From Astropecten irregularis (Eukaryota; Echinodermata; Asteroidea; Paxillosida; Astropectinidae), in the NCBI GenBank assembly GCA_963971285.1, contig OZ020248.1, positions 20,667,873-20,731,872 on the forward strand: 64,000 bases of DNA. Direction: 5' to 3'. Under the pieces are notes generated by a model. That model worked only from the letters and a program-made list of their open reading frames with translations. It was not told the origin of the DNA and made no database searches. This document shows, piece by piece, positions 1 to 59,052 of this stretch (within the stretch, counting starts at the first letter, position 1; each line of letters opens with the position of its first letter). The position numbers were made by a program, and so were the translations under genes.

Positions 1-387
1 TTTGATAGATGCTCACCTCTGAATCCAGAACATCATCAGTGAGCCAGGTTTCAGTCAATGCAAAGAAATGAAACAAACCTAGAGGCTGAAGTTGTGCTAA
101 CATCGAACTGTGCAGGATATCCAGCTTTTCAGACTTCTTACATTCTGAAGATAAACTTGAAGGCATTTATGACTTGAAGGCCTTTCATGATGATCTGTAG
201 ATGACTCTGAAGATTCTGGTCCAGGGTTTACTTCAATGTCACCAGCCAGGATAATATTGAAGCAAGATGTAGTGTTAGCATAGTAAGGGATGTAGGTCTT
301 GGAATATCTCATTTTACTGCCATTAACAGCATTACTGCCCTTCACTGACCTGGATGAGCATACTGAGGTGATATGATTTGGGCTCAA
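1..387 (-). mobile_element. CR1-like LINE fragment: ORF head with 2A-like peptide and start of AP endonuclease
   Basis: The minus-strand reading frame carries the motif GDIEVNPGP followed about 20 residues later by VYLQNVRSLKS, which is how the AP-endonuclease domain of CR1/L2-type LINEs normally begins. Further downstream (about 1-85), in another frame, ALTETWLTDDVLDSEV is readable; this is the conserved endonuclease block with the catalytic Glu of TETW. A frameshift lies between the two parts (about 95-110), so this copy is dead. The element runs off the window edge, so length and reverse transcriptase cannot be judged. Lys-rich coding-like sequence continues on the far side of the MITE at 405-688, which suggests the MITE landed inside the LINE. 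2A-like sequences at this position are known from CR1-like LINEs of sea urchins and other invertebrates. Confidence 0.8.
217..240 (-). other. 2A-like ribosome-skipping motif DIEVNPGP
   Basis: These 24 nucleotides encode DIEVNPGP, an exact match to the D(V/I)ExNPGP consensus of 2A-like peptides, at which ribosomes skip one peptide bond between Gly and the last Pro. It is preceded by a hydrophobic stretch (CFNIILAG), as usual. Its place just before the endonuclease agrees with known LINE 2A sites, where it would release a short N-terminal leader from the polyprotein. Activity is inferred from the motif alone. Confidence 0.8.
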
Positions 388-404
388 GTTTTGGCCGAGT
401 TGTC

Positions 405-688
405 CAGGCGCGGTTCTAGAGTAAAAATTTTGGGGGGGCTAGAAGAGTCTTTTTTTGGGGGGGGGGGGCTAGAAGACCCAATATTTTGGGTTCTAACACT
501 CGCTTCTGCTAGACGTCGGAAAACGTGCACATATATAGCCCACACAACGCGTTTTTTATATTGGCGCTTAATAACTGAAAAAAATCCAGTATTTTCAAGA
601 TTTTTTTTTTTTCACTTGCATTTTTTTTGGGGGGCTAGACAAAATTTTTGGGGGGCTACAGCCCCCCCCCCCCGTAGAACCGCGCCTT
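405..688. mobile_element. hAT-type MITE, 284 bp, with 8-bp target duplication
   Basis: The ends are inverted repeats: CAGGCGCGGTTCTAG on the left and TAGAACCGCGCCTT on the right. The flanks are the 8-bp direct repeat GAGTTGTC (397-404 and 689-696). CAGGCGCGG-type ends and 8-bp duplications are typical of hAT elements. The inside is very G-rich near both ends (long G and C runs) with no coding capacity. The clean target duplication shows insertion after the flanking LINE. Confidence 0.8.
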
Positions 689-9275: not shown

Positions 9276-9390
9276 CCATTTCAGGCAGTGGAGCGACTTG
9301 TCCCCACATGGGGTCGTTGCCAGCGAGGGCATCCAGCCTTGCCCACTCCTCGGCCGCATTAAAATCGTTTCCAAAAAATTGCTGAGCCAT
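9276..9390 (-). CDS. First exon of the Myb/FLYWCH-type gene
   Basis: An ATG at 9390 opens MAQQFFGNDFNAAEEWARL, followed by DALAGNDPMWGQVAPLPEM, and the frame ends in a good donor (G|GTAAG at 9275-9271). A diverged copy of the same exon lies at 16462-16558, which shows that this is a conserved first exon of a repeated gene or element family. The upstream 150 bp (9400-9550) are purine-rich with repeats of GAAGATGG/GACGGT. Confidence 0.6.
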
Positions 9391-14362: not shown

Positions 14363-16343
14363 TTAACAGCAAAAACATTTCAAAAGTTGGTACCTACTGA
14401 GCTTAAGGCCACAATACTTATGTTTGCTACTGAGCAACGCACCTCGGGCACCGATCGGTATGCCCTCCACTGAGGTGGACGTAACTCCGAACTGGTTCTT
14501 GATGGCCGTAGAAATAGGGCCAGTGTTATACTTGGTACACTTACTAATCTCTGAATCCCTCAAGGTGTGTTTGTGGGCCTCGTACGGGACAGACACATCG
14601 GCTAAGAAGGCGTGGTTCCTTGCCTTGTCAATGACCACCAGATCGGGTCTTAAATTACCAGTGCTGGAGTAAACCAGGGGCTCAATATGCACTGACTCCT
14701 CGCCATACTGCCTAGACAAATAACGAGCAACCTGTTTACATACCTCATTGTGCCTACGCATCCTGGCTTGAAGCACTGAAGGGTAGCGCTGCAGGATGTG
14801 AGATGTGGTTTCGATGGCACCGTCACATATGTCTACAAGAGTTAGGGCCGCCTGTAAATGCGAAATTGTTGCGGCAGGGAAGAGTTTTAGCCCTGAGAGC
14901 AATGGCCTTAGTATACAGGTCGCCTTGCAGTATGGTAGGGTTGTCCACCCACGAGGAGGCTGCGGGATGGTCAAAGGCTAAGGAGCCTTGGCCTTGTTTG
15001 GTCTTCGAATGTTCGCCCAGCCTCCGCATAGTGGAATCATGAATATGGTGCTTAATGTGGGATTTATCGGCCTCGACATTCGTCAGCCCGAGGGCTCAGC
15101 TAAGACTCTTGGGCTCTTTCTGCACCGCTCTAGAGGCATACAGATGCTGGATGTCCCTATCCTTGGACTTAGCAAGTCTCGTCAGAGCACCGTGCCTGAG
15201 TCTATTGGCCAGACATGGGATGTCTGGGAGGCCAAGACCGCCCAAAGATACTAAGTGGTATTAGCAGAATTGGGAAGATGTACTATCGACCGCACTGACT
15301 TCATGATACATCTTTAAATTGCCTTAAGGGCACTAGCTGGGTAGATATTCATACCAAAATGATAAGTAAGCCTAGGCACAACGAATGACTTAATCAAGAT
15401 AAGCTTCTGCTGGGGCTTCAAGTAGGCACCCGAAATCGCTCCAAGCCAACGGTTGAGCGGTCCAATGAGGTCGTATTTGGACTTGCCGAGAGTACCGAAT
15501 TTCTGACCGAGATACTTGATGGTATCTGTCGCTAGTATGGCTGGGATGAATGTACCTTGGGCTTGCCATACTGACTCGGTCAAGGGCATAAGCTTCGAAA
15601 TATGCCGACCATGGATACGGTGTACCATTGTCGCCCCGAACACAGCTGACTTGAGTGCATTGATTTTCATAAACCAAGCCTCAAAGAACTTTTGGCACGT
15701 GTCAAGCAGTGTGGATAACCCGCATTTACTCTCGGCCATAAGTACAAGATCGTCCGCAAATGCCAGAGAGTTGAACTTCGCACCGCCCATCTCCAGGCCG
15801 ATATATTCGGGGAGCGAAACGACCAGCTCGTCCAAGACAAGATTGAAAATTCTAGGACTAAGTGGGCATCCCTGCTTTGACACCACACCTCATCGGAATA
15901 GGGTCCGATGTAGAGCTACCGGTTGTGATACGAGTCCTGACGCCGGTGTATAGATCATCAATGCACGAGATGAATTTAGCTGGAATATGTCTCTTAAGAG
16001 CTCTCGAGATAGAGCTATGGTGAACTGAGTCGAAGGCTTTCGACAGATCGAGAAACATGACGTAGTACGATTTGTTCTCATGCCTATACTTAGTGATGAG
16101 ATGGTCCAATAGGGACACATTCTTCAAACACCCATCGGCAGGTATGAAAGCTTTCTGCCTAGGGTTTAGAGCAGTAGCATCAGTCAACCTAGTGTTCAAT
16201 ACTCTAGTGTATAACCTCAAAAGGTAAGAGCAAATGGTTATGGGCCGCCATTTAGATATATCTGTTGGACCGGCCTCGCCCTTAGGAATAAGGATCGTGT
16301 TATTCAACTTTAATTGCTCAGGCACCTTGCTAGACTCGAACCA
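14363..16343 (-). pseudogene. R2-clade non-LTR retrotransposon fragment (RT plus restriction-like endonuclease)
   Basis: The minus strand reads, in order: EQLKLNNTILIPKGEAGPTD, SKWRPITICSYLLRLYTRVL, YYVMFLDLSKAFDSVHH (RT, D of motif A), a second frame with KQGCPLSPRIFNLVLDELV and FADDLVLMAESK (the catalytic YADD-type box), GLGLPDIPCLANRLRHGALT, a zinc-knuckle-like ICDGAIETTSHILQRYP...RRHN, and LRPDLVVIDKARNHAFLADV, the PD...D endonuclease motif of R2/NeSL-type LINEs. At least one frameshift separates the RT parts (about 15,886). The 5' end is truncated inside the RT domain, right at the 94-bp repeat. It does not lie in rDNA. Confidence 0.85.
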
Positions 16344-16437
16344 GAATTTGGTAAAATAAAATTTACATTTCCAAATAAAAACAAATTGCATTTCAAAACA
16401 AAAACATAATTTACATTTCAATTTAACAAAATAACAG
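16344..16437. repeat. 94-bp direct repeat, right copy, flanking the LINE
   Basis: Near-identical to 14260-14353. If it is a target-site duplication, it dates the LINE insertion as fairly recent, because the two copies differ at very few positions. Confidence 0.8.
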
Positions 16438-16461
16438 ACTCTAAAAAATAATGTTACTTAC

Positions 16462-30329: not shown

Positions 30330-32665
30330 CAATTCTATCATCTTTTTACCAGCCTGAATCCTCAAATCAGTCATTTAGTACTTACATTCAAGTACAACAT
30401 AAATCCTCCAATCAATCCTCCAGTACTTCACTTACTACCTGCCTGAATCCTCCAAAATCCTCCGGCACTTCATAAGTACTACAAATAAATCCTCCAAAAT
30501 CCTTCTTTGATTCAAACTCTAACCAGCCAGAATCCTCCACAATCCTCCAATATCATCATCTTACTACCAGCCTGAATCCTCCACAATCCTCCAATATCTT
30601 CATCTTACTACCAGCCTGAATCCTCCACAATCCTCCAATATCATCATCTTACTACCAGCCTGAATCCTCCACAATCCTCCAATATCATCATCTTACTACC
30701 AGCCTGAATCCTCCACAATCCTCCAATATCATCATCTTACTACCAGCCTGAATCCTCCACAATCCTCCAATATCTTCATCTTACTACCAGCCTGAATCCT
30801 GCACAATCCTCCAATATCTTCATCTTACTACCAGCCTGAATCCTCCACAATCCTCCAATATCATCATCTTACTACCAGCCTGAATCCTCCACAATCCTCC
30901 AATATCTTCATTTTACTACCAGCCTGAATCCTCCACAATCCTCCAATATCATCATCCTACTACCAGCCTGAATCCTCCACAATCCTCCAATATCATCATC
31001 TTACTACCAGCCTGAATCCTCCACAATCCTCCAATATCTTCATCTTACTACCAGCCTGAATCCTCCACAATCCTCCAATATCATCATCTCACTACCAGCC
31101 TGAATCCTCCACAATCCTCCAATATCATCATCTTACTACCAGCCTGAATCCTCCACAATCCTCCAATATCATCATCTTACTACCTGCCTGAATCCTCCAC
31201 AATCCTCCAATATCTTCATCTTACTACCAGCCTGAATCCTCCACAATCCTCCAATATCATCATCTTACTACCAGCCTGAATCCTCCACAATCCTCCAATA
31301 TCTTCATCTTACTACCAGCCTGAATCCTCCACAATCCTCCAATATCATCATCCTACTACCAGCCTGAATCCTCCACAATCCTCCAATATCATCATCTTAC
31401 TACCAGCCTGAATCCTCCACAATCCTCCAATATCTTCATCTTACTACCAGCCTGAATCCTCCACAATCCTCCAATATCTTCATCTTACTACCAGCCTGAA
31501 TCCTCCACAATCCTCCAATATCTTCATCTTACTACCAGCCTGAATCCTCCACAATCCTCCAATATCTTCATCTTACTACCAGCCTGAATCCTCCACAATC
31601 CTCCAATATCTTCATCTTACTACCAGCCTGAATCCTCCACAATCCTCCAATATCTTCATCTTACTACCAGCCTGAATCCTCCACAATCCTCCAATATCAT
31701 CATCTTACTACCAGCCTGAATCCTCCACAATCCTCCAATATCATCATCTTACTACCAGCCTGAATCCTCCACAATCCTCCAATATCATCATCCTACTACC
31801 AGCCTGAATCCTCCACAATCCTCCAATATCATCATCTTACTACCAGCCTGAATCCTCCACAATCCTCCAATATCTTCATCTTACTACCAGCCTGAATCCT
31901 CCACAATCCTCCAATATCTTCATCTTACTACCAGCCTGAATCCTCCAATATCTTCATCTTACTACCAGCCTGAATCCTCCACAATCCTCCAATATCATCA
32001 TCCTACTACCAGCCTGAATCCTCCACAATCCTCCAATATCTTCATCTTACTACCAGCCTGAATCCTCCAATATCTTCATCTTACTACCAGCCTGAATCCT
32101 CCACAATCCTCCAATATCTTCATCTTACTACCAGCCTGAATCCTCCAATATCATCATCTTACTACCAGCCTTCATCTTACTACCAGCCTGAATCCTCCAC
32201 AATCCTCCAATATCTTCATCTTACTACCAGCCTGAATCCTCCACAATCCTCCAATATCTTCATCTTACTACCAGCCTGAATCCTCCACAATCCTCCAATA
32301 TCTTCATCTTACTACCAGCCTGAATCCTCCAATATCTTCATCTTACTACCAGCCTGAATCCTCCACAATCCTCCAATATCTTCATCTTACTACCAGCCTG
32401 AATCCTCCACAATCCTCCAATATCATCATCTTACTACCAGCCTGAATCCTCCACAATCCTCCAATATCTTCATCATACTACAAGCCTGAATCCTCCACAA
32501 TCCTCCAATATCATCATCTTACTACCAGCCTGAATCCTCCACAATCCTCCAATATCATCATCTTACTACCAGCCTGAATCCTCCAATATCTTCATCTTAC
32601 TACCAGCCTGAATCCTCCACAATCCTCCAATATCATCATCTTACTACCAGCCCTAATCCTCCATA
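30330..32665. repeat. 44-bp minisatellite array, ~2.3 kb
   Basis: The unit is CAGCCTGAATCCTCCACAAT plus CCTCCAATATCATCATCTTACTAC, 44 bp. After irregular founder units (30,330-30,540) it repeats about 47-50 times with very low divergence. Two alleles of the unit, ATATCATCATC and ATATCTTCATC, alternate irregularly; at least five units lack the 10-bp ACAATCCTCC segment (for example near 31,940, 32,060, 32,140, 32,325 and 32,580). Strand composition is strongly pyrimidine-biased. The array ends at 32,650-32,700 with an inverted piece GGAGGATTCTGGAGGATTTG and then GGGTTAGGGTTAAC. Unlike a CRISPR array, the copies have no unique spacers. Confidence 0.95.
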
Positions 32666-32762
32666 GTCCTTCAATACCACCAGGAGGATTCTGGAGGATT
32701 TGGGAGGGTTAGGGTTAACGGGAAAACCCTTTTAATTATAAAAAAAAAATGACTAAGTCCAG

Positions 32763-33950: not shown

Positions 33951-34836
33951 TAGTGCTGTGCATCAAAAACGGATTCACGGGCTCCCGCTTAAAATCTTGC
34001 CATCCGGTTTCAAAATTTCAAAAACGGAATACGAAACCAACATTTTTAAAAGTAGACTGACGTTTGCCTAATAAATAAACAACCCAAAAGTGTATACTGT
34101 ATAATACATACTTGAATTTCAGTCGTTTTGGGTCCATTTTGCCAAGCAGAAACAAACTTTTTGCAAACTTGATTAAACAAATATTGCGAACAGCCTTCCG
34201 AAAGCGACGATCGCTCGAAAGAAGACGTAAACGTATCGCGTACGATGCATCATGAACACCGCATGCCCACCACGTGGCCGCATGGCCCGGACCATGCAGC
34301 AGCAGAATTGCATCCAGAAAATTCCACGATGTGTAATGTGCGCCGCACCATTCAAAGCATACGTTGTACACCAGTACACAGTCGCCAATTCGCAATCAGG
34401 CCGGAAGTGCAAGCCTACATGCCGTACGTACAACGTGTGTATTTGGTGCATGCATTCAAGTTGCGCTCGGTACCGTGGATTTCGGCCGGCTTCAATGCAG
34501 ATTTTTCGGTAAGAAATGTGACATGTCACGCTGAGCAAGTTATGAAAGATTCTGACTGAATATTCTGTAAGGTTGCCGGCACCAAATCATCGCAAGATTC
34601 CCAAACACGCACGTAGATCGAGACCAGAAACTGAATGTATACGTCGGCGCAACGATCGTTGTAGCAATGTTTTACACACTCCTACATACAGCGCTATGCA
34701 TCATTTGATCATGCACATTATCGACACGTGCGTAATATAGCGCTATCATTCATTTTTATGAATCGGAGCTCGAGCAACCGCTTATTTTTTCAAAGCGTTT
34801 TCCGGTTTTCAAAAGCTCCGAAAATGCACAGCACTA
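33951..34836. mobile_element. Non-autonomous hAT element, 886 bp (empty-site version)
   Basis: The ends are TAGTGCTGTGCAT / ATGCACAGCACTA, flanked by the 8-bp duplication ACATGGAT (33943-33950 and 34837-34844). The element is almost identical to the one at 36406-37783 except for the 494-bp insertion in the latter. At the corresponding point this copy shows GTACACCAGTACAC, i.e. duplicated target bases around CAG. Confidence 0.92.
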
Positions 34837-36405: not shown

Positions 36406-37783
36406 TAGTGCTGTGCATCAAAAACGGATTCACGGGCTCCCGCTTAAAATCTTGCCATCCGGTTTCAAAATTTCAAAAACGGAATACGAAACCAACATTT
36501 TTAAAAGTAGACTGACGTTTGCCCAATAAATAAACAACCCAAAAGTGTATACTGTATAATACACACTTGAATTTCAGTCGTTTTGGGTCCATTTTGCCAA
36601 GCAGAAACAAACTTTTTGCAAACTTGATTAAACAAATATTGCGAACAGCCTTCCGAAAGCGACGATCGCTCGAAAGAAGACGTAAACGTATCGCGTACGA
36701 TGCATCATGAACACCGCATGCCCACCACGTGGCCGCATGGCCCGGACCATGCAGCAGCAGAATTGCATCCAGAAAATTCCACGATGTGTAATGTGCGCCG
36801 CACCATTCAAAGCATACGTTGTACACCAGGGGTGCGTTCCGCTTGTGCGAACATGTCTCAACGTTTGCGGCAACGTTTGCGTACAACCGGAACCGATTGT
36901 GAGCGCGCGTGGCACACAACCGTAAAATGGCGGTGTCCAGTCGTAACCAAGATGGCGTCGAATGCCTGCAGCCTCCAAAATAATTGATGAAATTTCTGAT
37001 AGTACTTGTACTGCAGCATATCATTAAGTACCAATTATCTATGGTGCAATTTGTGAAGTACTTGATAAATTTTCAATCTTAAAAACTGCAGTTTTTACTT
37101 TCGTCACAAAACAAATTACGTCGTCTGCTTACCGTTCTGCCATCTTGGAAATATCGACCATTTTTAAATGACACGCGAACATTCGCGAACATCTCAGAAA
37201 TATGTTCGCCGACTGTTGCTAACACCCGCCAACGTTAGCGGCGCACAAGTCGTTCCACCCGAAATTGTTTGCAAACGTTGGCAAACGGTGGCAACGTTCG
37301 CGCAAGCGGAACGCACCCCTGTACACAGTCGCCAATTCGCAATCAGGCCGGAAGTGCAAGCCTACATGCCGTACGTACAGCGTGTGTATTTGGTGCATGC
37401 ATTCAAGTTGCGCTCGGTACCGTGGATTTAGGCCGGCTTCAATGCAGATTTTTCGGTAAGAAATGTGACATGTCAAGCTGAGAAAGTTATGAAAGATTCT
37501 AACTGAATATTCTGTAAGGTTGCCGGCACCAAATCATCGCAAGATTCCCAAACACGCACGTAGATCGAGACCAGAAACTGAATGTATACGTCGGCGCAAC
37601 GATCGTTGTAGCAATGTTTTACACACTCCTACATACAGCGCTATGCATCATTTGATCGTGCACATTATCGACACGTGCGTAATATAGCGCTATCATTCAT
37701 TTTTATGAATCGGAGCTCGGGCAACCGCTAATTTTTTCAAAGCGTTTTCCTGTTTTCAAAAGCTCCGAAAATGCACAGCACTA
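36406..37783. mobile_element. Non-autonomous hAT element, 1,378 bp, carrying a nested hAT
   Basis: Same family and ends as 33951-34836, with its own 8-bp duplication CTCTGTAG (36398-36405 and 37784-37791). Identity to the other copy is very high (a handful of substitutions over about 880 bp by eye), so the family was recently active. The open frames in it (for example HPGPDHAAAELHPENSTM-like text) are shared with the other copy but have no known domain. Confidence 0.92.
36827..37320. mobile_element. Nested hAT-like MITE, ~493 bp
   Basis: The inverted ends CAGGGGTGCGTTCCGCTTG / CAAGCGGAACGCACCCC(T) are flanked by duplicated GTACAC (7 bp as TGTACAC). The interior has more paired GTTTGCGAACG-like words. 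It lies inside the hAT element at 36406-37783 and is absent from the sister copy. Confidence 0.85.
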
Positions 37784-44922: not shown

Positions 44923-46240
44923 CCGTGCATAATGGACAGTAAATCCTTAATTTGGGCAACTTCTTGAATTGTGGGTCTGCATCTGGGTGATGTGCCCGAT
45001 ATACTTGGAGAAGACTGCAGAAAATGCTGAGAACTTCCGCAAGGTATCCTTTTCTGTTCTCATCCGAGATAAGTGTAAGGAAGTTCTCAGCATGTGTGCT
45101 GCTGAACAGATCCCGTGCAAAGTTCCCCTGCATCATTAGTTTGGGTACCAAACCAATTGTTGCAGTGAGATGATCACTAAATAATTGATCAGCTGCATCA
45201 AACATTGGTTTTACGTCTTTCGTAATGTTCCAGGTTTGCTTGCGGGCGATCTCACAAGTTATTAGTTTCTTGAAGAAATTTCCCATATTTATGTCGGAAT
45301 GGGTGTCATCCATCAGTTTTTCCCTTGCATCAGACTTCAGAATTGGAACCGACTTCACCCTCCGTGAAACTTCTGCTAGATCTGCCGACGACAGATTGTC
45401 CGGGTTAACCTGTAGGTAGTGAGCTGCTGTCCTCATTTCCTCGTAGCTACGTGTTATAGAAAAGCTGCCCAGTTCAGCTTTGGCACCCTCCTTTGTTGCA
45501 TGGCACAATGTACAAATATATCTTGAACCGCTACCATGTAGCCCTGCATTTGATCTGTCCAAATTTTCATCGATCATGCTGTTGTAGAACTTCAGTTTAT
45601 GCCTCCTCCACACAGCACCAACATTCACAGCCATCTCTTAACCTCGCAAGACCTCTCGATCGTGTTCCATCCCTTCAAGCCAGGACAGCAGCAGATGCTC
45701 TATTATTTTCATCGGCTATTGCCTCAATCAGGGGCCGAGTGATGAATGTTGAGTCTGGGGCATCTGGCTCGTACACTGTTACCATCTCCCCATCCCTCTC
45801 TACCTCGCATTTAATCACTGCAAATGCAGCATGGAATGCCTTCCTCTGGTAACAGATGATCCCTTGTGGCTTTGGTTATGGAGATATCTCCCTTTCAATC
45901 CGCACCATCCTTGATGGTTGTCAAGATGCAATGGTCATCCTCAGGATCAAATCCCACTTTCTCCTCCATTCCTGCTGAGATCTTGGCATCCATCTCCTCC
46001 AGAGTCTTGCATTGGCAAGGGCCAAGCCACTCCATTCATGTTGGGGAAAGGGGTCTCTAGTCCTGGATGGTCCTCACAAATGAGATTCTTGGGTTCAAAT
46101 GACAGCTCCCCATACTCAACATGTGACTTCCCTACCTGAACAGGGTTGTGATGGATGACATTAAGGGATCTCCCTTGAAGATGTAGTTGTCTGAATCCTT
46201 TCACCACGTCACTGACATCTGAGTCATTGTTGCTGCAATG
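44923..46240 (-). pseudogene. RAG1L: RAG1-like transposase (RAG1L), catalytic core, fossil copy of a RAG-like DNA transposon
   Basis: Read against vertebrate RAG1 from memory, the blocks appear in the same order. KGFRQLHLQGRSLNVIHHNP and LEEMDAKISAGMEEK precede TTIKDGAD-stop-KGDIS, which lines up with VVKESCDGMGDVS (catalytic Asp 600 kept). KAFHAAFAVIKCEVERDGEM and PLIEAIADENNRAS line up with LCLMLADESDHET (Asp 708 kept). GSGSRYICTLCHATKEGAKA lines up with ASGSVYICTLCDATRLEA, and LGSFSITRSYEE, MMQGNFARDLF and SIFCSLLQVYRAHH follow the RAG1 zinc-binding region. The segment 44903-45634 is open for 243 codons; upstream there are a stop (TGA at the Gly after the first Asp), a frameshift after ADENNRAS and a TAA just before MAVNVGAV, plus a frame change near 46,010. 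Acceptor TTGCAG at about 46,236, donor GTAAGT at 44,922. The exon with the third catalytic residue (Glu 962) and any RAG2-like partner are not found here. Confidence 0.85.
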
Positions 46241-54781: not shown

Positions 54782-55110
54782 CTACACATAATTCACACAT
54801 TCCCACAAACAGGGGAACAACTGGTCGACTGTAACACCAGTTGTGGGGTACACAGCAATTAGTGAATGAAGAGAACTGTTGATGCTTCGTACCATCACAA
54901 CTAACACATGGGTAGCTATTTCTGCTTCCTCCTCACCTCTGCATCGACGCTCAAAGCGCATTACCTCATTGGCAATTTCACCTACATCAGTGAAACCAAC
55001 AATCTGTCCTGACCTCACAGAAAAGACAAGTCCTGCCTTGATCTTCATCTCGTCAAAGAGGAGGAGGACATTGTTGCTATTTGCATCAGGAGTTGTATTC
55101 TCTTTAGTGC
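54782..55110 (-). CDS. P-element-like transposase exon (RNase-H-like domain)
   Basis: The frame reads TPDANSNNVLLLFDEMKIKA, GLVFSVRSGQIVGFTDVGEI, ATHVLVVMVRSINSSLHSLI and AVYPTTGVTVDQLFPCLWEC. FDEMkI..GLvf....G.ivGFtd.ge is the first catalytic block of P-element/THAP9-related transposases common in aquatic invertebrates, and ATHVLVfMVRgi.s....aYfpT.g...dQLfp..We follows as expected. Upstream coding sequence is out of frame. Confidence 0.65.
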
Positions 55111-55323
55111 AGTTTTTTTCAGTGGTTGTGAGAGATCGCTCTTCCCAGTAGCCTTTTCAAGCCTCGATGCTGCTGTCTTGGCTTTCTTCTGCACGCGGGC
55201 AGTTGCACCATCCAAGGCTCTGTTGTTGAGTTCATCAACATGTCTGCCCATGTCCAATTGCACCTCTTTACACATAGCTAGCAGTGATGAGCGAAGCTCC
55301 GTACTCCCAAACCGGTCTGTCAT
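55045..55323 (-). other. Basic helical ORF, unidentified
   Basis: A 92-codon frame, MTDRFGSTELRSSLLAMCKE and ARVQKKAKTAASRLEKATGK. It overlaps the preceding entry in another frame only at its end. Could be an exon or part of the tnp2-like protein. Not recognised. Confidence 0.3.
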
Positions 55324-55689: not shown

Positions 55690-57659
55690 GAATGCTTATA
55701 TACTGCTTATGTACATATTACTGAGATGATTTACTCGACAGCCACATGTAATTACTTTAGAATGTCTTAGAATATCAGGATTCCTGACAGACGCCCATGT
55801 AAATTCATTAATCCCCCTCCTCTGCCTCCCTCCATTTCTGTCCGCAGCGTGTTTAAACCATGGCTTGATGATGGCCTCGACCTGGTCAAAGGAGGCTGTC
55901 AATATCATTGCATTTTATGCATCACCGATTCTAGGGATCTTGAGGAGTGTCCAGCTTCAACTGCTTAATAGCGCTCCGCACCAATGTCTTAGAATATCAG
56001 GATTCCTTACAGATGCCCATGTAAATTCATTAATCCCCCTCCTCTGCCTCCCTCCATTTCTGTCCGCAGCGTGTTTAAGCCATGACTTGATGATGGCCTC
56101 GACCTTGTCAAAGGAGGCTGTCAATATCATTGCATTTTGTGCATCACTGATTCTAGGGATCTTGAGGAGTGTCCAGCTTCAACTGCTGAATAGCGCTCCG
56201 CACTAATGTCTTAGAATATCAGGATTCCTGACAGATGCCCATGTAAATTCATTAATCCCCCTCCTCTGCCTCCCTCCATTTCTGTCCGAAGCGTGTTTAA
56301 ACCATGACTTGATGATGGCCTCGACCTGGTCAAAGGAGGCTGTCAATATCATTGCATTTTATGCATCACTGATTCTAGGGATCTTGAGGAGTGTCCAGCT
56401 TCAACTGCTGAATAGCGCTCCGCACTAATGTCTTAGAATATCAGGATTCCTGACAGACGCCCATGTAAATTCATTAATCCCCCTCCTCTGCCTCCCTCCA
56501 TTTCTGTCCGCAGCGTGTTTAAGCCATGACTTTATGATGGCCTCGACCTTGTCAAAGGAGGCTGTCAATATCATTGCATTTTGTGCATCACTGATTCTAG
56601 GGATCTTGAGGAGTGTCCAGCTTCAACTGCTGAATAGCGCTCCGCACTAATGTCTAAGAATATCAGGATTCCTGACAGACGCCCATGTAAATTCATTAAT
56701 CCCCCTCCTCTGCCTCCCTCCATTTCTGTCCGCAGCGTGTTTAAACCATGACTTTATGATGGCCTCGACCTGGTAAAAGGAGGCTGTCAATATCATTGCA
56801 TTTTGTGCATCACTGATTCTAGGGATCTTGAGGAGTGACCAGCCTCAACTGCTGAATAGCGCTCCGCACTAATGTCTTAGAACATCAGGATTCCTGACAG
56901 ATGCCCATGTAAATTCATTAATCCCCCTCCTCTGCCTCCCTCCATTTCTGTCCGCAGCGTGTTTAAACCATGACTTTATGATGGCCTCGACCTGGTCAAA
57001 GGAGGCTGTCAATATCATTGCATTTTGTGCATCACTGATTCTAGGGATCTTGAGGAGTGACCAGCCTCAACTGCTGAATAGCGCTCCCCACTAATGTCTT
57101 AGAATATCAGGATTCCTGACAGATGCCCATGTAAATTCATTAATCCCCCTCCTCTGCCTCCCTCCATTTCTGTCCGCAGCGTGTTTGAACCTTGACTTTA
57201 TGATGGCCTCGACCTGGTCAAAGGAGGCTGTCAATATCATTGCATTTTGTGCATCACTGATTCTAGGGATCTTGAGGAGTATTCAGCTTCAACTGCTGAA
57301 TAGCGCTCCGCACTAATGTCTTAGAATATCAGGATTCCTGACAGATGCCCATGTAAATTCATTAATCCCCCTCCTCTGCCTCCCTCCATTTCTGTCCGCA
57401 GCGTGTTTGAACCATGACTTTATGATGGCCTCGACCTGGTCAAAGGAGGCTGTCAATATGATTGCATGTTATGCATCACCGATTCTAGGGATCTTGAGGA
57501 GTGTCCAGCTTCAACTGCTGAATAGCGCTCCGCACTAATGTCTTAGAATATCAGGATTCCTGACAGATGCCCATGTAAATTCATTAATCCCCCTCCTCTG
57601 CCTCCCTCCATTTCTGTCCGCAGCGTGTTTGAACCATGACTTTATGATGGCCTCGACCC
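55690..57659 (-). repeat. 222-bp tandem array made of a duplicated coding exon (about nine copies)
   Basis: The word AATATCAGGATTCCTGACAG recurs at 55771, 55993, 56215, 56437, 56659, 56881, 57103, 57325 and 57547, always 222 bp apart, with only a few substitutions per unit. On the minus strand each unit has an acceptor (ATTGACAG) and an exon reading SFDQVEAIIKPWFKHAADRN, GGRQRRGINEFTWASVRNPD, ILRH. In the last transcript-order copy (55696-55908) the frame continues SKVITCGC and a donor-like GTAATT follows; in the others it ends at TAG after RH. 222 is a multiple of three. Family of the exon unknown. Confidence 0.85.
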
Positions 57660-58384: not shown

Positions 58385-59052
58385 TTACCAAATTCGTCAG
58401 TGTCATCTTGGGTGATTGTAATCATCTCTATGGACTTAAAAAAGTCTATATATCCCTTCTTGTTTCCTTTCTTCACATCTTTCCATTGCTCATGATGATG
58501 AAGATAGTCTGTTGTTGTCCCATGTGGGAGATGATTGAGTATCTCATTGATGGAACCTGCTAGTGATGATTTTGTGACGGTTCAGGACTTGACTGTTATT
58601 TCTTCATCTGTTGCAATGACATACGTTATATTCTTTGGTGGGCTCATGTGTGTTTTAAGACAGTTTGTGTACATTTCTTTGTTTCTTTGGCCAATGGCGG
58701 TCATATGGTTGTCTTTCAACTTTTTACCACTCAAAGACTGGAATGGCATGTCTGCTTGTGGGTCGAGAAGAATTCCTGATTTCCGAATTAAACATCGACA
58801 TTTGTTTATCTCTTCTTCAAGTTTGGACGATCCAGATGAAGGGTCAGAGATCCCCATCCTTGAGTGTGCAGCCTTCCCGATGTTTCCAAGCTCATGGTAA
58901 TTACGGAGAGCGAGCATCCAGTCACCAGCATTCGGAACACCATTTGCCAGAATGGCTTTGACCTTTTTGTTGACATTCTCTAAGACAAAGTCTAGTCCTT
59001 CACCACTACTAGGATTTCCAGTGAAACTGAAGGACTCATTGGTAGCAACCAT
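58385..59052 (-). CDS. Transposon-derived protein exon (DUF6589-like, tentative)
   Basis: The frame 58582-59052 reads NESFSFTGNPSSGEGLDFVL, ENVNKKVKAILANGVPNAGD and WMLALRNYHELGNIGKAAHS; after a stop (TGA near 58,582) the next frame gives SSLAGSINEILNHLPHGTTT. The E..NK..K..l..GvP....W....RNy..L pattern is common to C-terminal parts of DUF6589-like and related transposon-derived proteins. Tentative. Confidence 0.4.

Follow-up and report, generated by a model that had tools for sequence, protein, structure and literature searches.

Probable remnants of two or more copies of a RAG-like (RAG1L/RAG2L) DNA transposon in a transposon-rich 64-kb stretch of genomic DNA

A RAGL (RAG1L/RAG2L) DNA transposon has most probably left decayed pieces of two or more copies in the 64-kb stretch of DNA analysed here (the window), in a transposon-rich region; a probability of roughly 0.9 is assigned to this reading. 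The largest piece is a RAG1L exon whose features support its being a dead copy; two smaller fragments of RAG1L were found in addition to this exon, the only one described in an earlier note on this DNA (Table 1). In their present state, none of the three pieces can encode a complete transposase. The vertebrate V(D)J recombinase arose from RAGL transposons, whose fossils help to trace the places and times of their activity; the dead copy with its two smaller scraps adds one case to the RAG1L fossils known from several groups of invertebrates.

Table 1. Coordinates of the RAG1L pieces in the window and of the motifs within the main exon; mouse numbers E662 and R848 are those presumed for the aligned positions
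Feature	Position	Strand	Remarks
RAG1L pseudogene exon (PreR, RNase H core, ZnC2 region)	~46232-44924	minus	aligns with 6b40 chain residues 147-532
Stretch with all five lesions, ~380 nt	45638-46018	minus	
Lesion-free open 3' part, 244 codons to next stop	45637-44906	minus	
DGAD	45909-45898	minus	last D equivalent to mouse D600 / amphioxus D701; TGA stop directly after
IADEN	45719-45705	minus	E equivalent to mouse E662 / amphioxus E764
YNSMID	45586-45569	minus	D equivalent to mouse D708 / amphioxus D811
ICTLC	45517-45503	minus	two zinc-binding Cys of ZnC2 (CTLC pair kept); zinc role after passages of PMC7204232 and general background
DDTHSDI	45310-45290	minus	H equivalent to mouse H795 / amphioxus H894
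KLMMQGNFARDL	45142-45107	minus	Met at position assigned to mouse R848
Fragment 2	57928-57659	minus	260/271 DNA identity to 45583-45314 (self-comparison)
Fragment 3, nonamer-binding and dimerization/DNA-binding region	9126-8778	minus	6b40 chain residues 16-134

The exon is preceded by AG at 46234-46233, read from the sequence as a putative acceptor, and followed by GTAAGT (GT at 44923-44922). In a phmmer search, its open 3' part matched amphioxus RAG1L (PDB 6b40) with E=7.5e-46 and vertebrate RAG1 chains with E=1.1e-19 to 6.8e-18 (mouse RAG1 ~1e-19), the next match being unrelated (E=0.63), and the Pfam family RAG1 (PF12940) was recognized in the same part (E=4.4e-23, 81.7 bits at a cut-off of 25). 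The upstream neighbour piece, 45875-45678, matched the 6b40 chain with E=6e-6, and a Pfam search with the two smaller exon pieces returned no family. The most upstream piece, when searched alone, gave weak unrelated matches only, with RAG1L absent from them. It lines up with amphioxus RAG1L once the pieces are joined, both in one query that also contained amphioxus letters and, independently, in a frameshift-aware alignment, and its match to a Connector-enhancer-of-KSR protein (E=0.077; 0.68 in the joined query) was discarded for this reason. Across frames, 153 of 379 residues of the whole exon (40%) are identical to amphioxus RAG1L, with a frameshift-aware score of 628, while 8 mononucleotide-shuffled controls, set against 401 of the 501 reference residues, scored 27-38. 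The RAG1-type peptide blocks listed in the earlier note are present at the place and in the order it gave; its RAG1-like assignment is borne out by the best matches, all to RAG1L or RAG1, and the better match to a non-RAG family that it had named as contrary evidence was not obtained.

The active site of amphioxus RAG1L consists of D701, E764, D811, H894, and E1063, as listed by Martin et al. 2020 (PMC7204232). An offset of 467, inferred from the alignments, converts these numbers to chain residues 234, 297, 344, 427, and 596, at which the amphioxus chain shows D, E, D, H, and E. Aligned codons for four of the five are kept in the exon, namely the equivalents of D600, E662, D708, and H795. The position that presumably corresponds to mouse E649 is occupied in the alignments by Thr, and by Val in amphioxus. 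Hydrophobicity at the position of R848 is tied to transposition in passages of PMC7204232; the Met found at the position assigned to R848 is of this hydrophobic, transposase-like kind. The earlier note took the block IADENNRAS for the Asp708 site. This block aligns instead with amphioxus E764 (mouse E662), the Asp708 site being YNSMID. Since both catalytic Asp residues are nevertheless kept, in DGAD and YNSMID, the note's title, which counted two of three catalytic Asp blocks as retained, turns out right by a different route, its second block having been mislabelled.

Five lesions were located in the exon by the frameshift-aware alignment: the reading frame shifts near 46018, 45842, and 45679, and it is interrupted by stop codons at 45897 (TGA) and 45640 (TAA). 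In the same alignment, the remaining ~715 nt (45637-44924) were free of lesions. The copy was thus correctly called dead in the earlier note, although with a count of three lesions, two frameshifts having been missed, and its 3' half was correctly described as the better preserved one, all five lesions lying in the 5' part. Were five lesions spread evenly over the aligned length, a lesion-free 3' part would arise with a chance of ~0.013, a value calculated for a boundary picked post hoc. At the protein level the broken part matches no less well (45% and 40% identity in two of its three pieces, vs 40% in the open part). The imbalance has three possible explanations: chance, a chimeric origin from two copies, and selection acting on the 3' part.

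All three RAG1L pieces lie on the minus strand, in an arrangement that does not follow the gene order. Fragment 2 contains an in-frame stop and two indels relative to the main exon (copy 1); the gene region of fragment 2 is present in the main exon as well, and the two therefore represent different copies. Over 271 bp they differ by 9 substitutions and the 2 indels, with pN/pS of 0.48 (Fisher p=0.39), a divergence compatible with neutral evolution, the data being too few to show or to exclude constraint. Fragment 2 abuts a 222-bp satellite (55761-57658, 8.5 copies, 97% matches), whose unit has a 48-codon minus-strand reading with no Pfam match.

Fragment 3, in which the boundaries of the nonamer-binding and dimerization/DNA-binding domains are those we take to apply, shares 35 of 115 residues with amphioxus RAG1L and scores 134, as compared with at most 42 in 30 shuffles. 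When it was read through and searched against PDB, amphioxus RAG1L was the sole significant match (E=4.1e-12; next 0.57), and vertebrate RAG1 was absent at E<=10; Pfam gave no match for a 53-residue piece of it. The names of its domains follow PMC7204232. The fragment is broken by two frameshifts and one stop, and it could derive from copy 1, copy 2, or a third copy. A broken peptide of the Myb/SANT type (Myb_DNA-bind_4) comes after it, and just upstream of the fragment, at 9276-9389 on the minus strand, lies an ATG-started exon-like stretch of 38 codons ending in GTAAGT, with no Pfam match.

No exon with the equivalent of Glu962 was found in the 64-kb window by tblastn with the amphioxus and mouse C-termini; the best match (E=0.073), to the amphioxus C-terminus at 58572, rose to E=0.87 in a second search and was dismissed as being at chance level. 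Neither the SEGNE motif nor the CTT* motif Cx2Cx3GHx4C occurs in the six frames of the window, and the absence of CTT* is expected if the last exon was lost. CTT* is common to nearly all invertebrate RAG1L, and therefore it is no marker separating RAGL_B from the others. The lack of the E962 part marks a broken copy, not a different family. For RAG2L, family profiles were applied to 93 of the 128 plus-strand ORFs of at least 48 codons in three regions (the 35 omitted being mainly overlapping or repeat ones), and no RAG2 or kelch match appeared among the 93. One match to a 6-bladed propeller (YqgU, E=0.095) was rejected as chance level for 93 proteins, and no PHD pattern was found in the window. 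Passages of PMC7204232 describe RAG2L as hard to detect. The catalytic Glu exon and the RAG2-like partner, both reported missing from the window by the earlier note, were accordingly not recovered by tblastn and motif searches or, for RAG2L, by the scan of 93 of 128 plus-strand ORFs and the PHD pattern.

Transposon ends did not stand out from controls either. The consensus of the terminal inverted repeats (TIR) was met with at most 2 mismatches 5 times in the window, with 3.58 expected and 28 of 100 shuffles reaching 5. Pairs of CAC ends flanked by exact 5-bp duplications numbered 5, 1, and 0 around the three fragments, compared with means of 2.8, 0.95, and 0.3 in 20 controls shuffled in two-base blocks; the closest agreement of a real pair was 11 of 18 positions, and 11 or 12 was reached by 19 of the 20 controls of the first fragment. 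Among the 25 of 58 inverted-repeat pairs listed near the exon, the pair 43415/50360 begins with CAC and matches at 14 of 18 positions. It was rejected as the transposon ends, such pairs, when duplication is not required, being at a chance-level count (2 vs 2.38 expected from 60 shuffles) and its flanks agreeing at 2 of 5 bases. The CAC-type terminal repeats with 5-bp target duplications whose search the earlier note had proposed thus showed no excess over controls in the window, and its placing of RAG-like transposons in this genome is supported by the gene fossils and not by transposon ends. The window offers no second full copy by which the ends could be located. With no ends or duplications beyond controls, no clear RAG2L, and no Glu962 exon, the transposon origin therefore rests on homology. 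Also weighing against the preferred reading are the lesion-free 3' stretch, longer than an even spread of lesions would predict, the lack of a RAG1L match for the most upstream piece by itself, and the lack of Pfam matches for the two smaller exon pieces and part of fragment 3.

A cut-and-paste mechanism is the likely mode of movement of the parent element: RAG1L with a RAG2L partner would have cut its CAC-type inverted repeats by DDE RNase H chemistry, and insertion would have produced 5-bp target duplications. This course of events is established for ProtoRAG and RAG. After arrival, which presumably occurred by transposition rather than by local duplication, the copies would have gained stops, frameshifts, and losses amid other transposon sequences, and a present function is probably absent. 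Neighbouring transposon domains recognized by Pfam comprise, from scans of 20 chosen ORFs, TNP-like_RNaseH_N at 54785-55156 and reverse transcriptase pieces at 15317-16457, and, in addition, the Myb_DNA-bind_4 domain mentioned above.

Several other elements of the window are worth recording. An ORF without Pfam match at 100-438 (minus strand) contains the peptide GDIEVNPGP, presumably a motif of the 2A type that occurs in some LINE elements. Two matches to the histone 3' UTR stem-loop (Rfam), at 2778-2822 (35.6 bits, gathering threshold 34) and, below the threshold, at 1187-1231 (27.9 bits), both on the minus strand, sit in two copies of one repeated region, the former starting ~30 bases past the stop of an ORF without Pfam match. 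A 44-bp minisatellite of 52.5 copies with a strong C-over-G strand skew occupies 30402-32676, and the repeated blocks at 33951-34836 and 36406-37783, 99.5% (424 bp) and 97.7% (469 bp) identical, are a recent duplication. A scan of the window found no tRNA.

Could the open 3' exon have been kept by selection in a non-catalytic RAG1L-derived protein, i.e., as a part of a partly domesticated host gene? Its 244 open codons, the AG and GT at the exon ends, and the freedom of the 3' part from lesions are what such a gene would offer, and the pN/pS value for copies 1 and 2 (0.48) points the same way, though not significantly. The five lesions lie upstream within the very same exon, however, the catalytic Glu part is missing, and the copy comparison covers just 271 bp (p=0.39), so that partial domestication is considered very improbable; RAG1L genes with other functions, such as sea urchin PlRAG1Lb, have been proposed in passages of Yakovenko et al. 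2023 (PMC9885083). A bolder version, in which the lesion-free 3' exon of ~238 codons is a domesticated non-catalytic part of a spliced host gene, amid clustered RAG1L relics and possibly in an animal group without reported RAGL, is very improbable as well. The opposite suspicion, that the gene is intact and its lesions are sequencing or assembly errors, draws on the crowding of the five main-exon lesions into one stretch of ~380 nt; yet in-frame stops account for two of the five, the other two fragments are broken too, and the window yielded no Glu exon, which leaves errors a highly improbable cause.

Transib is the accepted relative, with the DDE core in common, and the exon might in principle belong to a Transib transposase or to another RNase H DDE family. 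Transib was, nevertheless, absent at E<=10 from the searches with the open part, the 45875-45678 piece, and fragment 3, while RAG1L reached 7.5e-46, and fragment 3 was significant with RAG1L alone; the closer relationship to Transib that the earlier note would have counted against RAG1L was not seen. This absence is weaker evidence than it appears, because Transib 6pqn, which was in the searched library, matched in another search (E=0.0059) via a C-terminal segment that is missing from the window pieces. Passages of PMC7204232 put Transib at <22% identity to RAG1/RAG1L, as against the 40% of the exon to amphioxus RAG1L, and a Transib or other non-RAG1L transposase is judged extremely improbable. 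The decayed RAGL transposon remains the preferred explanation. The presence of three relics within 64 kb points to more than one insertion or to local duplication in the lineage, and the value of the find is modest unless its host belongs to a group from which RAGL has not been reported or the open exon turns out to be used.

RAGL elements have been published from echinoderms, amphioxus, a hemichordate, molluscs, a nemertean, and cnidarians, degenerate copies included, according to passages of Martin et al. (PMC7204232). In viral contigs, 6 pattern matches to the open part were obtained and none was confirmed as a relative. The open part is 39-40% identical to amphioxus RAG1L_B vs 29% to mouse RAG1, so the RAG1L of the window appears nearer to amphioxus RAG1L than to vertebrate RAG1; these identities, which concern amphioxus and mouse and not the families A (P. 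flava), C, and D, fit an affinity with RAGL_B. The combined match of the fragments to ProtoRAG/BbRAG1L of Branchiostoma belcheri (6b40, RAGL_B) starts in the nonamer-binding region and extends to the zinc region, and they share with it both Asp residues, the equivalents of E764 and H894, CTLC, and hydrophobicity at position R848. Unlike BbRAG1L, to which identity is ~40%, they are broken, and the C-terminal Glu part, CTT*, RAG2L, and terminal repeats were not found in the window. Core identity between new elements and earlier-known ones of amphioxus and sea urchin is >60% in passages of PMC7204232; at 40% to B. belcheri RAG1L, a close copy of amphioxus ProtoRAG is therefore unlikely.

LVRAG1L of Lytechinus variegatus, as described in passages of Kapitonov and Koonin 2015 (PMC4411706), likewise contains stops and frameshifts and has no identified terminal repeats, but it is adjacent to an intact-like RAG2L, of which none is seen in the window. 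The solitary RAG1L type II copies of sea urchins often form small clusters and are sometimes potential pseudogenes, according to passages of Yakovenko et al. 2023 (PMC9885083), and the pieces in the window resemble them, by description and not by sequence, in being clustered and multi-exon RAG1L, with no RAG2L seen among the 93 plus-strand ORFs scanned; the sea urchin copies are RAG1L without RAG2L. Vertebrate RAG1, finally, belongs to the same family and has the same block order, the window copy differing from it by its 29% identity in the open part and by Met in place of Arg at 848.
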